Both the position numbers and the translations under genes were made by a program. From an uncultured Lachnospiraceae bacterium (lineage in GTDB: Bacteria > Bacillota > Clostridia > Lachnospirales > Lachnospiraceae), in the NCBI GenBank assembly GCA_902797565.1, contig CADBTO010000322.1, positions 1 to 12,865 on the forward strand: a stretch of 12,865 bases of DNA. Reading direction: 5' to 3'. Position 1 is the first letter of the stretch. Every line of letters begins with the position of its first letter. Positions 1,623-12,865 of this stretch are shown here, piece after piece. The notes beneath the pieces are model-generated. The model saw nothing but the letters and a program-made list of their open reading frames with translations, searched no databases and had not been told where the DNA came from.

Positions 1623-4600
1623 TTATGTGGATAGGATTTCTGTCAATGTTTCGATCATCTTCCCAATTTCAATGGGTTTTGCAATGTGCGCATCCATTCC
1701 TGCGGCTTTTGCTTTCTGGACGTCCTCTGCGAAGGCATTTGCGGTCATTGCGATAATCGGAATCTTTGCCAGCTGAGGATCTTCCAGTGCGCGGATTGCC
1801 TGGGAGGATGCGTATCCGTCCATAACCGGCATCTGGATGTCCATCAGGACTGCTGCAAAATCTCCCGGCTGCGATGCCTGGACTTTTTCTACGGCAATCT
1901 TGCCATTCTCTGCCGTTTCAACCTGGAAGCCGGATTTCTTCAGGATCATCGTGGCAATCTCCCGGTTGACCACCTGGTCTTCCACAAGGAGCAGTTTGAA
2001 CTGGCTGAAATCCAGCTCTGCCGGCTTCGAATCAGGCGAATCAGACGGTGATGTACTGGAAGCCTGCGGTTTCTTCTTCGCCGGTGCTTTTGTGATGGCA
2101 AAATCCAGATGGAGGATGAACTCTGTGCCCTTGCCCTGCTCGGTTTCTACCGTGATTTTTCCGCCCATCAGATCTACGATACTCTTCGTAATCGCCATTC
2201 CAAGGCCCGTGCCCTGGATCTTGCTGACGGTTTTTTCACGTTCGTATGCTTCGAACACGCGTGCGGCAAATTCCGGGCTCATGCCCATGCCGCTGTCTTT
2301 GACCCGGATGACATAGTGCCCAATTCGTGCCGGAGCGGCTGTCTGGCCGCCTTGTGCAGGCTCTGTGCCCTGCCCCTCGTGTGCAGACTCTGTGTCCTGC
2401 CCTCCCAATACTTCAGGGGACGTTCCGTTTTCCAGCTCCGGGGCGGTGGAACTTCCTTCCTGTGTAAGAACCACGCGGACGCTCCCGTCGGCTGGCGTGA
2501 ACTTGAATGCATTGCTGACAAGGTTCAGCAGCACGCGGTTCAGACGGTTTGCATCGCAGAGGACATAGGGATCGGAAACATCATCCGTATCGACCGTATA
2601 CTCGATGCCCTTCATCTCCATCTGCGTGGCGAAGAGGTCTTTGATCTCTCCCACGGTCTGCGCCAGATTTGCCCGCTGCAGATCCAGTTCCATCTTCCCG
2701 CTTTCGATGCGGCTCATATCCAGTACATCGTTGATCAGCGCCAACAGATGGCGGCTGGAAGCCTCGATTTTCCCAAGATATTCTGCCGCGTCTTCCGGAA
2801 GCCCTTCGATTTCTTTCGTAATTTCTGTATAACCGATAATCGCATTCATCGGAGTCCGGATATCGTGGCTCATATTGGAGAGAAACGCGCTTTTTGCGCG
2901 GTTGCTTTCCTCCGCGGCAGCCTTTTCCACGGCCAGCATTTGTGCCCGCTGGTACATGGAACTGTAAATCTTAAACATAATGAAGAGCGCGAGGAAGATG
3001 ATCGCCATCTGGATCAGGCTGTTCTGCTGCATCTCGTGGTTGAATTTCGCAACCATCTTGTCCAGATAATAATCCGTATCTTTTTTCTCCGTCGCATCAG
3101 GCTTGTAGCCGTGTTCTTCCAGTTCATTTTCATGATAGGCACTCAGTTCCTTGAGCACTTCCGCGGACTTCGTATTCGAAGATTCCCGGAACCAGAGCAT
3201 ACTAAGGAAGAACAAGAGGAACAGCAGCACGATCCAGACCACGGTGGATTTTCCGAAGCGATGGCGTTTGTCATTCTGGAACACGCTATAGAAGAACAGG
3301 AAGCCCAGGATTCCCCAGCCGATTAAGATCAGATAGGATTCTGCCGTCAGTGCTTCCACAGACCAGAAGTTCGGGATCAGGAAGTACAGCGTGAAGATAC
3401 CGGAGATGAAGGCGCCCAGGATGCCCGTGTACATCACGATGCGGTTTCCGTCCCTGCGCGCTGCTTTGTAAGCGACTACGGATGTGTACAGATAGGCGAT
3501 GGTTGCGCCGATCGTATTGACATCCACGATCCAGCTGATGGCGGTCCGTCCCAGAAATGGCACGGGAAGCGAGATCAGCATCACGAAGAGGATCGCCGTC
3601 CGTGGTACGCCGTTGCGCCGCAGCTGCGCGAATTTCTTTGGAAGCATATCATCCCGCGCGGCAGCATAGAGCAGCCGGCTGGATGCAATCGTATTTCCGA
3701 TCAGGCCGGTCAGGATGCCGCCTGCAGTCGTCAATCCCAGTAGAAGGAATCCTGCCTTTCCCATATAGGTGAACACGCTGTGGAAAGTGGGAAGGCTTTG
3801 GACGCCGCTGTATTCAGACAGATGCAGGATATAATCTTTCCAGTCCGCCGCGCCTTTCGGCAATGCGGAAACGGCGATCAATGCCAGTAGTGAATATGCC
3901 AAAGCCGCCGTTACCACAGCAGAGATCATAATCGCAATCGCGCGCTTGACAGGGAAATGGAATTCCTCGGATGAATGGGAGATGGATTCAAATCCCGCAT
4001 AGGCCCAGGGCGCGAGCGCGACAATCCGGAAAATCTGGAGCGCGTGGCTCCCGTCTGAAGCAAATCTGGGCTGGATTTCCGTAATGGATACGCCGTTTCC
4101 AAGAAAGATGGATGCTGCACAGATCGTCACGCCGCCGATCAGGATGATCGCAAAGATGCTCTGTATCACAGAAGAGAGGCGTCCGCCTGCCAGACATACC
4201 AGTCCGGAAAACAGGATGGCTCCAGCGGAAACCAGCGCTTCGGCCAGATAGACGTCAAAGCCTGCCACCTGATAATGCGGCCCGATGGAAAGCAGGTTCC
4301 CGAACAGGTTCCGGCAGATCAGCGGGATCGCGGTGGCGTTTGCCCAGACAATCGCCAGATAGACGAGGGAGAGGAACCATGCGCTCAGGAAGCCATGGTC
4401 ATATCCCAGCTCCTGTTTGACGAAGGCGAAGGTTCCGCCGCAGTCCGGGTATTTTTTCATCATATAATAATAATTCGTTCCGATCAAGAGCATGACAAGC
4501 CCGCCGACCAGCATACCGATCGCCGTCCCCCATGGACCGGCAAGCGGGAGGAAGGTGGAACCCGGCATGACAAACGACCCCCAGCCAACGCTGCAGCCGA

Positions 4601-4685
4601 AGGCGAGTGCCCAGGCACCCAGGGGAGAAAGATAGGGCCTTAGGCCCCGAACCTCCTGAGACGGAGTTTGCGCACTTTGTGCCAT
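1623..4685 (-). CDS. APC-family transporter fused to hybrid histidine kinase
   Basis: The protein has 1020 residues from the ATG at 4685. Residues about 20-470 form a 12-helix amino acid-polyamine-organocation (APC) transporter: the broken first helix reads SVGWGSFVMPG, and the sixth-helix region reads PWAYAGFES. Two further membrane helices (about 482-499 and 557-574) enclose a charged loop of some 57 residues, probably outside the cell. A coiled linker leads to a HisKA domain with H-box SHDIRTPMN (His607). The ATPase domain has N-box Asn725, DSGMGM (797-802) and GTGLGM (825-830). The receiver domain (about 897-1015) has acidic pair Glu902/Asp903, phospho-acceptor Asp949, Thr981 and Lys1003. 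All kinase and receiver catalytic residues are present, so phosphotransfer should be active. It probably senses an amino acid or its transport and autophosphorylates; no output domain follows. A repetitive insert lies inside the ATPase domain. A TTG start 48 bases upstream is possible but less likely, since GGAG precedes this ATG. Domains are certain; the ligand is unknown. Confidence 0.93.
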   Translation of the reverse strand: MAQSAQTPSQEVRGLRPYLSPLGAWALAFGCSVGWGSFVMPGSTFLPLAGPWGTAIGMLVGGLVMLLIGTNYYYMMKKYPDCGGTFAFVKQELGYDHGFLSAWFLSLVYLAIVWANATAIPLICRNLFGNLLSIGPHYQVAGFDVYLAEALVSAGAILFSGLVCLAGGRLSSVIQSIFAIILIGGVTICAASIFLGNGVSITEIQPRFASDGSHALQIFRIVALAPWAYAGFESISHSSEEFHFPVKRAIAIMISAVVTAALAYSLLALIAVSALPKGAADWKDYILHLSEYSGVQSLPTFHSVFTYMGKAGFLLLGLTTAGGILTGLIGNTIASSRLLYAAARDDMLPKKFAQLRRNGVPRTAILFVMLISLPVPFLGRTAISWIVDVNTIGATIAYLYTSVVAYKAARRDGNRIVMYTGILGAFISGIFTLYFLIPNFWSVEALTAESYLILIGWGILGFLFFYSVFQNDKRHRFGKSTVVWIVLLFLLFFLSMLWFRESSNTKSAEVLKELSAYHENELEEHGYKPDATEKKDTDYYLDKMVAKFNHEMQQNSLIQMAIIFLALFIMFKIYSSMYQRAQMLAVEKAAAEESNRAKSAFLSNMSHDIRTPMNAIIGYTEITKEIEGLPEDAAEYLGKIEASSRHLLALINDVLDMSRIESGKMELDLQRANLAQTVGEIKDLFATQMEMKGIEYTVDTDDVSDPYVLCDANRLNRVLLNLVSNAFKFTPADGSVRVVLTQEGSSTAPELENGTSPEVLGGQDTESAHEGQGTEPAQGGQTAAPARIGHYVIRVKDSGMGMSPEFAARVFEAYEREKTVSKIQGTGLGMAITKSIVDLMGGKITVETEQGKGTEFILHLDFAITKAPAKKKPQASSTSPSDSPDSKPAELDFSQFKLLLVEDQVVNREIATMILKKSGFQVETAENGKIAVEKVQASQPGDFAAVLMDIQMPVMDGYASSQAIRALEDPQLAKIPIIAMTANAFAEDVQKAKAAGMDAHIAKPIEIGKMIETLTEILST

Positions 4686-8304: not shown

Positions 8305-10026
8305 ATGAAAGTTCGGAAAATTGGAGTTTCGACAAAATTATTTTTTATGCTGACAGGCATGCTGCTGCTGGCGAATGCGGTGCTTGGCGGCATCATGTTC
8401 GCGCGGATCCGTTCGCTGCTGATCCAGCAGATTAAGCAGAGCACGGTCAATCTGGCGAAGACAGCCGCGGCAGAGGTGGACGGGGATGCGTTCGAGAAGC
8501 TGAAGGCGGGGGATGAGGATACGCCGGAATATAAAGGGATCTTTGACGAACTGGCTGTGTATCGGGATAATAGTGAAATAGAGTACATCTACGCAACGCG
8601 GCAGAACCCGGATGGACAGGTGGTTTATGTGGTGGATACGGATCCATCGGTGAGTGAGGTGGTGGATGTTTCTTTCGGAAGCGATGCAGGAGATGCGTTC
8701 CTGACAGCAATGAGCGGGACGCCTGCGGCGAACGCGAAGCCATACAAAGACCAGTGGGGGACGCACTTGAGTGCCTGTGCCCCGATCCGGGGAGGCGGCG
8801 GTTCGAAGATCGTGGGTGTGGTTTCGATTGATATCAGCATGTCCTGGGTGGACAAGAAAGTTCGCCAGGCGGGGATGGACATTATCGGTGTCTGCGCAGC
8901 GATCCTTGCGTGTGGCGTGGTGTGCCTGTACATTGTCAGCCGGCTGCTCCACAGAAAATTCGAGATATTGGATCAGAAGCTTCTGGATCTGACAGATGGT
9001 TCCGGGGATCTGACGAAGGAGATTACGCTGCGGAGCGGTGATGAATTTGAACTGATCGGCGTCCGGATCAATACCCTGATGGGGCAGATCCGGGCACTGA
9101 TCCAGCAGGTGGCGCATACTTCGGAAAACGTGGTGAATGAAGGCGTGAACCTGCAATATACGCTTGAAGGAAATGTCCGCAGCATCAGCGAGATGAACGA
9201 TGGCATTTCAAGCATCCGGGATAACATGCAGGATGTCCGCCATTCCAGCGAGACGGCAAGCGGATTCCTGGAGCGGACAGCGGAGCAGATCCAGGATTTC
9301 GCGAAACATGTTGAACAGGTGGAGCAGCAGACAGCATATGCGAACCGGGATGCGGAAGAATCTGCGAAGATGGCGCGGGAGCACCGGGACAAGGCGATCC
9401 GGGAGATTAGCGAGATCCAGCACAGGGTGCAGGAAGCCACAGAGGGCGCGAAGGTCATTGAGCGCGTGCAGGATATTGCGGCGGAGATCAATGCCATTGC
9501 GTCGAAGACGAAGATCCTGAGCCTGAACGCGCAGATCGAGGCGGCGCGTGCCGGGGAGCAGGGGCGCGGCTTTGCAGTCGTGGCAGGCGATGTGGAAAAC
9601 CTCAGCAGCACGATCGCCGTCTCTGTCCGGGAGATCAACGAGATCACGCGCCAGGCGATGGAGTCCGTTTCGCTTCTGGCGGACCAGAGTTCCTCGATGA
9701 GCGAGTTTATGACCCGCGAGGTTGTCCCGGATTACGACGCATTCGTGAACATCGGCCAGCAGTATGGCGATACGATGGGGACGATCCAGCAGAGCATGAG
9801 CGGTCTGCGGGACGGCAGCACCCAGATCAGCCGCGTGGTGGAAGAGGTCAACAGCAGCATTCAGGAGATCAGCACAAGTATGGGCGACAGCGCACAGCGG
9901 GTCAGCGATCTTTCGGATTCGTCTGCGGATATTTCGAACAGTATGGAGAAGCTGCGGGATGGCTCGGAGAAGAATGTGGAGCACACGGCGCAGCTGAATG
10001 AGCAGATTGGGAAGTACCAGTATTAA
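8305..10026 (+). CDS. Methyl-accepting chemotaxis protein
   Basis: The protein has 573 residues in the order membrane helix (about 12-33), extracellular sensor (about 35-188, Cache-like pattern with YIYATRQNPDG and GVVSIDIS), second helix (about 190-213), HAMP (about 214-266, with DGSGDLT at 231-237) and a long coiled-coil signalling domain. The hairpin tip at 398-427 includes SLNAQIEAARAGEQGRGFAVVA, shown here only as landmarks: LNAQIEAARAG and GRGFAVVA. The tip is close to consensus, but the following segment, VAGDVENLSS, departs from the usual VADEVRKLAE. There is no C-terminal CheR-binding pentapeptide. It should bind a small ligand outside and signal to CheA or a related kinase inside. 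AAGGGG eight bases before the ATG supports the start. It is transcribed away from the transporter-kinase operon from the same control region, which hints at linked sensing. The 89-aa gene follows after 27 bases with no terminator. The family is certain, the ligand unknown. Confidence 0.95.
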   Translation: MKVRKIGVSTKLFFMLTGMLLLANAVLGGIMFARIRSLLIQQIKQSTVNLAKTAAAEVDGDAFEKLKAGDEDTPEYKGIFDELAVYRDNSEIEYIYATRQNPDGQVVYVVDTDPSVSEVVDVSFGSDAGDAFLTAMSGTPAANAKPYKDQWGTHLSACAPIRGGGGSKIVGVVSIDISMSWVDKKVRQAGMDIIGVCAAILACGVVCLYIVSRLLHRKFEILDQKLLDLTDGSGDLTKEITLRSGDEFELIGVRINTLMGQIRALIQQVAHTSENVVNEGVNLQYTLEGNVRSISEMNDGISSIRDNMQDVRHSSETASGFLERTAEQIQDFAKHVEQVEQQTAYANRDAEESAKMAREHRDKAIREISEIQHRVQEATEGAKVIERVQDIAAEINAIASKTKILSLNAQIEAARAGEQGRGFAVVAGDVENLSSTIAVSVREINEITRQAMESVSLLADQSSSMSEFMTREVVPDYDAFVNIGQQYGDTMGTIQQSMSGLRDGSTQISRVVEEVNSSIQEISTSMGDSAQRVSDLSDSSADISNSMEKLRDGSEKNVEHTAQLNEQIGKYQY

Positions 10027-11030: not shown

Positions 11031-12320
11031 ATGTCAGAGAAGAAAAAATACAGATTTGAAACATTGCAGCTGCACGTGGGACAGGAGCAGGCGGATTCGG
11101 CAACGGATGCACGGGCGGTGCCGATTTATGCAACAACATCCTATGTGTTCCGGGATTCCCAGCATGCAGCAGACCGTTTTGGCCTGCGGGATGCGGGCAA
11201 CATTTATGGACGGCTGACGAATACAACACAGGATGTCTTTGAACAGCGCATCGCAGCACTGGAAGGCGGCGCGGCAGCACTGGCAACGGCATCCGGTGCG
11301 GCAGCGATCACATACACGATCGAAGCGCTTGCGGGACAGGGCGAAAACATTGTGGCATCGAAGACGATCTATGGCGGGACATACAACCTGCTGGAGCATA
11401 CGCTTCCCCGCTACGGCATTACGACGAAGTTTGTAGATCCCTATGCGGATGGTGCTTTCGAGGCAGCGATTGATGAAAAGACCAAGGCAATTTTCATCGA
11501 AACGCTGGGGAATCCGAATTCCAATGTCATTGATATCGAAGCGGTGGCAAAGGTCGCGCATGACCATGGCATTCCGCTGGTTATCGACAGTACGTTTGCA
11601 ACACCGTTCCTGATCCGGCCGCTGGAACACGGCGCGGATATTGTGATCCACAGCGCAACGAAGTTCATTGGCGGGCACGGCACAGCGATCGGCGGCGTCA
11701 TCATTGATGGCGGCAGCTTCGACTGGAAGGCGTCCGGGAAGTACCCGTGGATTTCCGAGCCGAACCCGTCCTATCACGGGATCAGCTTTTCTGATGCAGT
11801 GGGGCCGGTGGCATTTGTCACCTATATCCGTGCGATCCTGCTGCGGGACACCGGCGCAACGCTCTCTCCCTTCCACGCGTTCCTTTTCCTGCAAGGGCTG
11901 GAGACCCTGTCCCTGCGTGTGGAACGGCATGTGGAGAATGCGCTCAAGATCGTAGACTTCCTGTCGAAGCATCCGAAGGTGGAGGCGGTGCACCATCCAT
12001 CCCTGGAGAGCGAACCCAGCCACGAGATATACAAGAAGTATTTCCCGAATGGCGGCGGCTCGATTTTTACATTCGAGGTCAAAGGCGGCGAAGAAGAAGC
12101 CAGGAAGTTTATCGACCATCTCGATATCTTTTCGTTGCTGGCAAATGTGGCGGATGTCAAGTCGCTGGTCATCCATCCGGCGTCCACGACGCACTCCCAG
12201 CTGACTGAAGCGGAACTTCTGGAGCAGGGCATCAAGCCGAATACGATCCGCCTGTCCATCGGTACAGAGCATGTGGACGACCTGATCGGGGCACTGGAGG
12301 ATGCGTTTGCGGCAGTGTGA
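11031..12320 (+). CDS. metY: O-acetylhomoserine sulfhydrylase (aminocarboxypropyltransferase)
   Basis: The protein has 429 residues, the normal length for MetY and longer than MetB or MetC (about 380-400). It is a pyridoxal-phosphate enzyme of the Cys/Met metabolism family that makes homocysteine from O-acetylhomoserine and sulfide in the cytoplasm, the direct sulfhydrylation route to methionine. Landmarks are the N-terminal [11 protein letters not shown] (8-18), [10 protein letters not shown] (31-40), YGRLTNTT (59-66) for cofactor phosphate contact from the partner subunit, SGAAA (88-92), the cofactor-ring Asp186 in VIDSTFATP and Lys211 in [11 protein letters not shown] as the Schiff-base lysine. 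The long segment about 220-260 (GGVIIDGG to [14 protein letters not shown]) is typical of MetY rather than cystathionine enzymes. Single gene with its own promoter and terminator. Residual ambiguity is only whether it can also use O-acetylserine. Confidence 0.95.
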
Positions 12321-12361
12321 GATGAGGCGCGGCAGTGCGCAGCAAACTGATAAAAAACGAG

Positions 12362-12405
12362 AATGCCAGCCAGGCAGGGGGGAACCTTGCCTGGCTGGCA
12401 TTTTT
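12362..12405 (+). terminator. Rho-independent terminator after metY
   Basis: A 15-bp perfect stem (AATGCCAGCCAGGCA with its complement), extendable by three weaker pairs, ends in a run of five T. It lies 42 bases after the metY stop. It is very stable and should isolate metY from the next gene. Confidence 0.95.
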
Positions 12406-12408
12406 GCC

Positions 12409-12437
12409 TTGCACGTGTTTGACAGGTGTGGTAAGAT
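12409..12437 (+). promoter_or_regulatory. Possible promoter of the Uma2 gene
   Basis: TTGCAC (12409-12414), 17 bases, then TAAGAT (12432-12437) is a plausible sigma-A promoter just after the metY terminator. A better -35 match, TTGACA at 12419-12424, lies only seven bases from the TAAGAT and has no -10 box at correct spacing. Transcription would begin near 12444. Confidence 0.5.
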
Positions 12438-12483
12438 ACAGGGGGAGTAGTAAGTTTGGAAAAGCTAAGGGCGTGGCGAGGAC

Positions 12484-12573
12484 GTGGCAAAGGTTGCGGC
12501 GGATGCGAGTTACCGCAAACAGATGCTGGAGGCATTTCGGGAGGGAGACAATGGATATACAAATATCGTCTGA
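12484..12573 (+). CDS. Possible 29-aa leader peptide before the Uma2 gene
   Basis: A GTG-started frame encodes 29 residues (including ASYRKQMLEAFREGDNGY) and ends 23 bases inside the Uma2 gene in another frame. Its composition looks protein-like, with a helix-forming middle, but the upstream GAGG is only two bases from the GTG. It may be a translated leader, a remnant of an older gene, or chance. Confidence 0.25.
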   Translation: MAKVAADASYRKQMLEAFREGDNGYTNIV

Positions 12574-12865
12574 TACAAGGATGGAAGCGGTGAAGGCTCT
12601 GGGGGACCGGGGAGACGCGGGGTATACGGTGGCGGATATCGAGGCGCTGCCGGAGGACGTGCGGGTGGAGCTGATCAATGGCAGGCTTTACCTGATGGCG
12701 ACGCCAACACGGACGCACCAGAGGATATCCGGGTTTCTGTACTGGAAAATCAGAGATTATATCGAAAAGAACGGTGGAAAATGTGAAGTGTATTATGCCC
12801 CAATGGGGGTTTATCTTTTTGATGACGGGAAAAACTGGTTCGAACCGGACATATTTGTCTGCTGC
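12551..12865 (+). CDS. Uma2-family endonuclease-like protein, 5' part (runs off window)
   Basis: The first 105 residues are seen; the gene continues past the window edge. The pattern is that of the Uma2 (DUF820) family, which has a PD-(D/E)XK nuclease-like fold: YTVADIEALPEDVRVELING (25-44) with Glu40, LMATPTRTHQRIS (48-60), a helix LYWKIRDYIEKNGG, then VYYAPMGVYLF (80-90) and FEPDIFVCC (97-105) with Asp100, a predicted metal-binding residue. Members are common and often multicopy in cyanobacteria and in gut Clostridia, and their cell role is not well known. The ATG at 12551 is chosen because GGGAGGGAG ends three bases before it; an in-frame ATG at 12503 lacks a clear site and would add arginine- and tryptophan-rich residues unlike the family. 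The family is sure, the activity inferred. Confidence 0.88.
   Translation, partial: MDIQISSDTRMEAVKALGDRGDAGYTVADIEALPEDVRVELINGRLYLMATPTRTHQRISGFLYWKIRDYIEKNGGKCEVYYAPMGVYLFDDGKNWFEPDIFVCC

Follow-up and report, generated by a model that had tools for sequence, protein, structure and literature searches.

Most of what is known about bacterial transporter-sensors comes from the SLC5-STAC kinases, and the signalling role of the transporter is disputed there. According to the available excerpts of four papers, CbrA and CrbS consist of an SLC5 transporter joined via a STAC domain to a kinase (PMC7096432, PMC5715377, PMC7918813, PMC13022988), and the excerpts of two of them also describe SLC5-STAC together with a diguanylate cyclase (PMC7096432, PMC5715377). 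When the SLC5 part of CbrA is deleted or swapped, expression of the target genes persists, so that a fused transporter need not be a sensor; the same part modulates autokinase kinetics, as far as the accessible text of these studies extends (PMC7096432, PMC5715377, PMC7918813). In the 5TMR or S-component sensor kinases a transporter-like membrane fold serves as receptor before a histidine kinase or a GGDEF domain, and the accessible part of their description regards transceptors as oddities reported, apart from its own S-component case, only from eukaryotes, with CbrA set aside (PMC11109136). Yeast Ssy1, of the SPS sensor, is eukaryotic and has separate signalling partners and no fused kinase.

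Here, we analyzed a 12,865-nucleotide stretch of DNA (the window) from an uncultured Lachnospiraceae bacterium (GenBank assembly GCA_902797565.1, contig CADBTO010000322.1), which encodes an APC-type transporter, a histidine kinase and a receiver in one polypeptide. Similar to CbrA and CrbS (MxtR), this protein has a (hybrid) kinase preceded on its N-terminal side by a LeuT-fold transporter, and versions with a diguanylate cyclase are found as well. However, CbrA and CrbS possess an SLC5 part with 13 helices, a four-helix STAC domain and a PAS domain, whereas the window protein has an APC part, 14 helices and a putative hairpin coupler. Its fold is unrelated to the ECF S-component of the 5TMR-type kinases. 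On the best reading, the protein would work like CbrA or yeast Ssy1; it is a member of neither family. We give a probability of roughly 60% to a membrane receptor that derives from an APC (LeuT-fold) transporter and drives a phosphorelay via hairpin coupling.

Architecture of the APC-kinase protein

As the preliminary description had proposed, one unbroken open reading frame carries an APC fold and two additional helices, followed by HisKA, ATPase and receiver (Table 1). AA_permease_2 and AA_permease were the Pfam domains found on the transporter part at E up to 1; the AA_permease_2 profile scored above its curated cut-off and, together with the APC fold, places this part in the APC family. 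Pfam domains and the invariance of His607, Asn721, Asn725, Gly825-Gly829 and Asp949 in a 51-row alignment identify the remainder as a hybrid kinase. The transporter core is nearly gap-free and about as conserved as the kinase, if slightly less. NCBIfam returned 148 families, the best 25 of which were kinases or kinase-type regulators, all under cut-off.

Table 1. Coordinates of the features in the window
Feature	Position	Strand	Basis
Membrane-anchored rhodanese, 147 aa	1153..1596	-	PF00581, E 4.4e-17
APC-hybrid histidine kinase, 1020 aa, complete ORF (stop included)	1623..4685	-	
12-helix APC transporter fold, residues 13-475	3261..4649	-	
TM12-13 linker (RFGKS) and TM13/TM14 hairpin, residues 476-580, proposed coupler	2946..3260	-	
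Outer part of the hairpin, residues 501-557	3015..3185	-	Predicted continuing helices, turn near 526-530
HisKA, residues 597-663, phospho-acceptor His607	2697..2897	-	Pfam; His607 invariant, 51 rows
HATPase, residues about 705-865, N and G boxes	2091..2573	-	Pfam and alignment
Receiver, residues 899-1014, phospho-acceptor Asp949	1644..1991	-	Pfam; Asp949 invariant, 51 rows
Trp35, centre of Gly-Trp-Gly in broken TM1, at GkApcT Thr43	4581..4583	-	HMM alignment
Trp114, TM3, signalling-clade signature	4344..4346	-	W 144/145, F 1/145; 0/22 non-signalling
Glu233, TM6b, at GkApcT Asp237, signalling-clade signature	3987..3989	-	HMM alignment and residue counts

The SSF (SLC5) domain of CbrA and CrbS gave no Pfam match at E up to 1, which bears out the earlier proposal of a transporter-type sensor kinase built on another transporter family than that of CbrA. 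A STAC domain, 72 residues long in CbrA, is absent between transporter and kinase; there is no room for it, because TM14 lies within a single predicted helix (531-623) that runs into the start of HisKA, which begins at residue 597. Likewise, neither PAS nor any other cytoplasmic sensor domain matched between TM14 and HisKA in Pfam at E up to 1, and a PAS linker before the DHp was thus ruled out. The ATPase domain contains an insert rich in Gly, Gln and Glu (residues 745-790, window 2316-2453) that most relatives lack, residues 761-780 being gaps in 98% of the 51 aligned rows.

Transport site and proposed mechanism

In the receptor that we propose, a small solute, not necessarily an amino acid, would enter the central TM1/TM6 site from outside, and movement of TM6b/TM3 and the inner loops would be transmitted to the TM13/TM14 hairpin by way of the TM12-13 linker. 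Since TM14 is predicted to continue as a single helix into the beginning of the kinase dimerisation domain, the hairpin would reset the DHp bundle and thereby the balance of autokinase and phosphatase. Phosphate would then travel from His607 to Asp949, on to separate HPt proteins and finally to regulators. Transport would have been lost or reduced.

APC/SLC7 amino-acid transporters typically have Gly-(Ser/Thr)-Gly in the broken TM1. This motif, Gly-Thr-Gly in GkApcT, is absent from the window protein, which has Gly-Trp-Gly instead. Positions of the site were mapped by HMM alignment of the window protein to GkApcT, and residues were counted in 145 signalling rows (under 90% identity) and 22 non-signalling rows; these rows, like those used for hairpin and loop, were drawn from the best-ranked matches and the loci kept, and form an uneven sample. 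Trp35 is W in 145/145 signalling rows and, among the non-signalling rows, W in 19/22 and F in 3/22. Gly-Trp-Gly, being common to most non-signalling kin, is therefore a mark of the subfamily and not of the sensor. The position of Glu233 separates the two sets: E in 145/145 signalling rows versus D in 21/22 and G in 1/22 non-signalling rows. Asp96 (145/145 versus 0/22) and Asp472 (144/145 versus 0/22) behave similarly, as does Trp114, whose mapping onto TM3 of GkApcT is uncertain owing to a four-residue gap in the alignment. In GkApcT, according to the part of the paper available, the amides of Thr43 and Gly44 hold the amino-acid carboxylate, Asp237 lies at the inner gate and its replacement by Ala abolishes all function, and Phe231, to which Trp227 aligns, is close to the place of AdiC Trp202 (PMC5803215). 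GkApcT Glu115 and Lys191 have no counterpart in the window protein, where Val108 and Leu182 align to them; the rows tabulated have no acidic residue and no Lys at these positions.

The window protein thus differs from AdiC, y+LAT1 and GkApcT in its Gly-Trp-Gly TM1, in Glu for Asp237 and in the added hairpin and kinase. Comparing the site with an APC transporter of known substrate had been suggested as a check, and the aligned residues indicate a TM1/TM6 transport site that is retained yet altered. The original idea that the protein reads amino-acid binding or flux directly did not gain support, given the change from Gly-Thr-Gly to Gly-Trp-Gly and the missing equivalents of Glu115 and Lys191. 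The differences at the gate are marks of one clade, so that each is one old event rather than many; the clade residues are probably single ancestral changes, kept afterwards almost without exception. We infer that gating was altered when the protein turned into a sensor.

Alternatively, the APC part could be a working transporter that carries its substrate while the attached kinase answers another cue, as proposed for CbrA. Besides the CbrA precedent, the intact TM1/TM6 site and 12 helices are compatible with this, and uptake may depend on the fusions, as no stand-alone PF13520 transporter was found in the source genome (81% complete). We nevertheless consider it rather unlikely: no cytoplasmic sensor domain matched between TM14 and HisKA, the pore is linked to the output by the hairpin in kinase and GGDEF members alike, and the gate Asp of nearly all non-signalling rows is Glu throughout the signalling rows.

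TM13/TM14 hairpin and the rhodanese neighbour

The hairpin was counted as merged hydropathy peaks at two cut-offs (1.3 and 1.6) in 98 signalling rows, namely 51 + 10 kinases and 35 + 2 GGDEF proteins. At the cut-off of 1.3, two helices follow TM12 in 98/98 of these rows and none in 8 stand-alone transporters or in 4 fusions of APC with an iron-containing alcohol dehydrogenase; at 1.6, 89/98 signalling rows show two helices and 9/98 one, the 12 non-signalling proteins again none. In most of the signalling rows listed, TM12 leads into an RFGKS-like linker. The segment 498-560 measures 63 residues in the window protein and in 86/109 non-redundant kinase rows, whereas 7 other kinase rows from the same clade have a shortened version of 27-33 residues and the GGDEF rows differ as well (8-residue segments of L146 and L147, apparent alignment errors, were left out). 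Since the loop varies in length, we read the hairpin as a coupler and not as a second sensor. Of the two roles first offered for the added helices, that of coupling device is strengthened by their restriction to signalling members (98/98 versus 0/12), and that of second sensor is weakened. The hairpin looks like a coupler, with an added role of its loop possible in the main kinase family.

A stronger version would make the outer loop the sensor, perhaps for a product of an adjoining external rhodanese, and reduce the APC part to an anchor. Tyr517, Glu521 and His525 of the loop are near-invariant in the main kinase family, the prevailing single length of the segment agrees with such a function, and an external-looking rhodanese adjoins in 29/68 loci. 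However, the shortened and differing segments contrast with a constant APC core, and the average conservation of the loop columns is below that of the core, which makes a loop sensor improbable.

The rhodanese of the window begins 26 bases past the kinase stop and has its own ribosome site, AAAAGGGGG, ahead of its ATG; no further PF00581 match was found in the source genome. Across the 68 loci with a called downstream ORF, window included, a small rhodanese is the commonest neighbour, encoded on the same strand downstream as first or second gene in 29, and the next neighbour clusters reach at most 6 loci. All 29 rhodaneses have a hydrophobic N-terminal stretch and YCxxGxR, and 12 have a lipobox pattern; they therefore probably sit outside the membrane. 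On a tree with long branches at L100, L109 and L113, the pairing requires 9 changes versus a shuffled mean of 22. One 40-row clade (28 with, 12 without) holds 28/29 pairings, and the window is the sole paired member of its 28-row side. The pairing is therefore mainly a feature of that clade and, being absent from 39/68 loci, is not required by the sensor in general.

Other genes nearby were considered as well. A PLP enzyme of Cys/Met metabolism (11034-12317) was rejected as a sulfur link: it lies on the other strand, more than 6 kb off, and outside the 25 neighbour clusters examined. Nor did these 25 clusters include the genes for a GT4 and an alpha-amylase that lie upstream in the window. In a regex scan of 265 near versus 468 far ORFs, with rows that are not independent, GGDEF, HPt, kinase and receiver motifs were somewhat commoner near than far (Fisher p 0.007-0.063; EAL 0.38), an enrichment within two genes too weak to use. 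The window further encodes, on the strand opposite to the kinase, a methyl-accepting chemotaxis protein (8305-10026, +); a protein cut by the window start shows a GLUG motif match (1-1107, +), and a Uma2-family ORF lies at 12335-12865 (+). A minor neighbour cluster that looks Uma2-like by eye occurs at 6 loci, on the opposite strand and one or two genes upstream. Neither the Rfam nor the tRNA scan gave a match in the window.

For hints to a ligand, we inspected the neighbours of the five stand-alone relatives that branch closest to the sensor clade in the tree (L132, L134, L139, L140 and L141). A gene with winged-helix and nucleotidyltransferase domains adjoins in L132, L140 and L141, in L132 with a choline-kinase domain too, and an iron alcohol dehydrogenase gene adjoins in L134. 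In a further branch, Pfam also identified an APC part of the same subfamily joined to an iron-containing alcohol dehydrogenase in L145 (226-2871, -); sequence and length indicate the same fusion in L029 (1408-4128), L143 (1450-4101), L144, L030 and L031. A class-III aminotransferase adjoins the L145 fusion, and L143 and L144 show similar sequence. The pairing of aminotransferase and dehydrogenase recalls GABA breakdown, and the fusion is possibly a transporter-enzyme leading from GABA to 4-hydroxybutyrate. Altogether there are three divergent hints, to amino-alcohols, GABA-like compounds and sulfur compounds, none of them decisive; transfer of a ligand from kin is unsafe, because the sensor clade has its own near-site residues.

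Distribution, outputs and significance of the family

A protein search covered 5.77 billion proteins: the 7999 candidates with the most words in common with the query were scored, 2593 passed E 0.001 and the best 120 were listed. The five-domain Pfam set is identical in 120/120 matches listed, one of which is the window protein; the others share 54-58% identity with the query. The protein is hence a real transporter-kinase fusion, as first described, and the suggested search across genomes found APC + HisKA + receiver to be widespread. A join of separate transporter and kinase ORFs by misassembly or frameshift, named at the outset as what could overturn the finding, has practically no standing: the source genome is a fragmented bin of 428 contigs, nothing else speaks for a join, and the listed homologues repeat the architecture on many contigs, cultured Butyrivibrio strains included.

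A scan of genomes from named species yielded at least 80 loci, those listed bearing mostly Lachnospiraceae (with Butyrivibrio), Selenomonadaceae or Selenomonadales, and Oscillospiraceae titles. One bin each is titled Treponema, Victivallales and Lentisphaeria, and these may be misbinned. Of the 80 listed, 10 leave the contig at the 3' end and 3 at the 5' end; among the remaining 67, the median ORF measures 980 aa. A strict scan found all four motifs in 56/67. Once the other 11 had been inspected and L100, L109 and L113 analysed with Pfam, 66/67 are hybrid kinases, two of them with two receivers (L100 and L113), and 1/67 is a GGDEF protein (L109). In a Lachnospiraceae sample, 61/299 genomes had any match and 21/299 a match of at least 36% identity with an open reading frame of 740 aa or more, taken as signalling fusions by identity and length, with domains checked in some. 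A phylum-wide even draw gave any match in 79/398 genomes, mostly stand-alone-sized ORFs. The architecture is not rare, and family size rules out a one-genome curiosity. The source genome itself has two PF13520 ORFs, both joined to a hybrid kinase, the second (contig C418) with an HPt domain in addition. Two-component proteins are plentiful in this 2.4 Mb bin (91 stretches matching the window protein, 23 HPt matches).

Behind APC part and hairpin we found HisKA-ATPase-REC, the same with HPt, the same with two RECs, and GGDEF. The APC-GGDEF relative L127 (741 aa, 160-2382) was used for a further search, in which 119/120 matches listed, L127 included, contain GGDEF, the remaining one being a 526-residue entry named partial; these transporter-type diguanylate cyclases form a large family of their own (L127; P0121-P0240). 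L128 and L129 combine APC with GGDEF and a receiver. A quick tree (LG+G4, SH-aLRT, no bootstrap) was calculated from 64 rows, including 14/51 kinase rows of alignment A1 and 14/35 GGDEF rows of alignment A5. A single branch (SH-aLRT 100) separates all 42 fusions sampled (26 kinase, 16 GGDEF) from the other rows, and the 16 GGDEF rows form one group (SH-aLRT 96) adjoining kinase L130, nested among the kinases. The simplest account is that the APC sensor arose once, joined to a kinase, and that an output swap came later. As relatives place the same part before a different signalling enzyme, this suggests that the transporter part is a plug-in sensor. In L146 (393-2909 and 2920-4353, -) and L147 (589-3021 and 3029-4480, -) APC-kinase genes stand in tandem pairs with no visible receiver; in the second genes the phospho-acceptor His lies within THDIGL, and Pfam on the L146 copy gave no HisKA match at E 0.01.

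No description of an APC-kinase/GGDEF family was found among open-licence titles and abstracts, a scope outside which subscription papers lie and a domain-survey mention is possible. The lineage of transporter-derived sensors is real and widespread and, as far as searched, undescribed. Tentatively, with chances a little under even, we propose a receptor class: an APC transporter would have become a general-purpose sensory module once (core plus TM13/TM14 coupler), with transport lost or reduced via gate changes (TM6b Asp to Glu, TM3 Trp), joined to phosphorelay and c-di-GMP outputs and working in part with an external rhodanese, a sulfur compound or amino-alcohol being hinted at as ligand. With another transporter, another coupler and two outputs, this second lineage beside SLC5-STAC offers a clean comparison, since what both need in common is the coupling machinery. 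Ligand screening is simple with the GGDEF members, because c-di-GMP in laboratory E. coli can serve as the readout of their activity. Members of the family turn up repeatedly in Clostridia and Negativicutes of the rumen and gut, bacteria whose sensing is little known.
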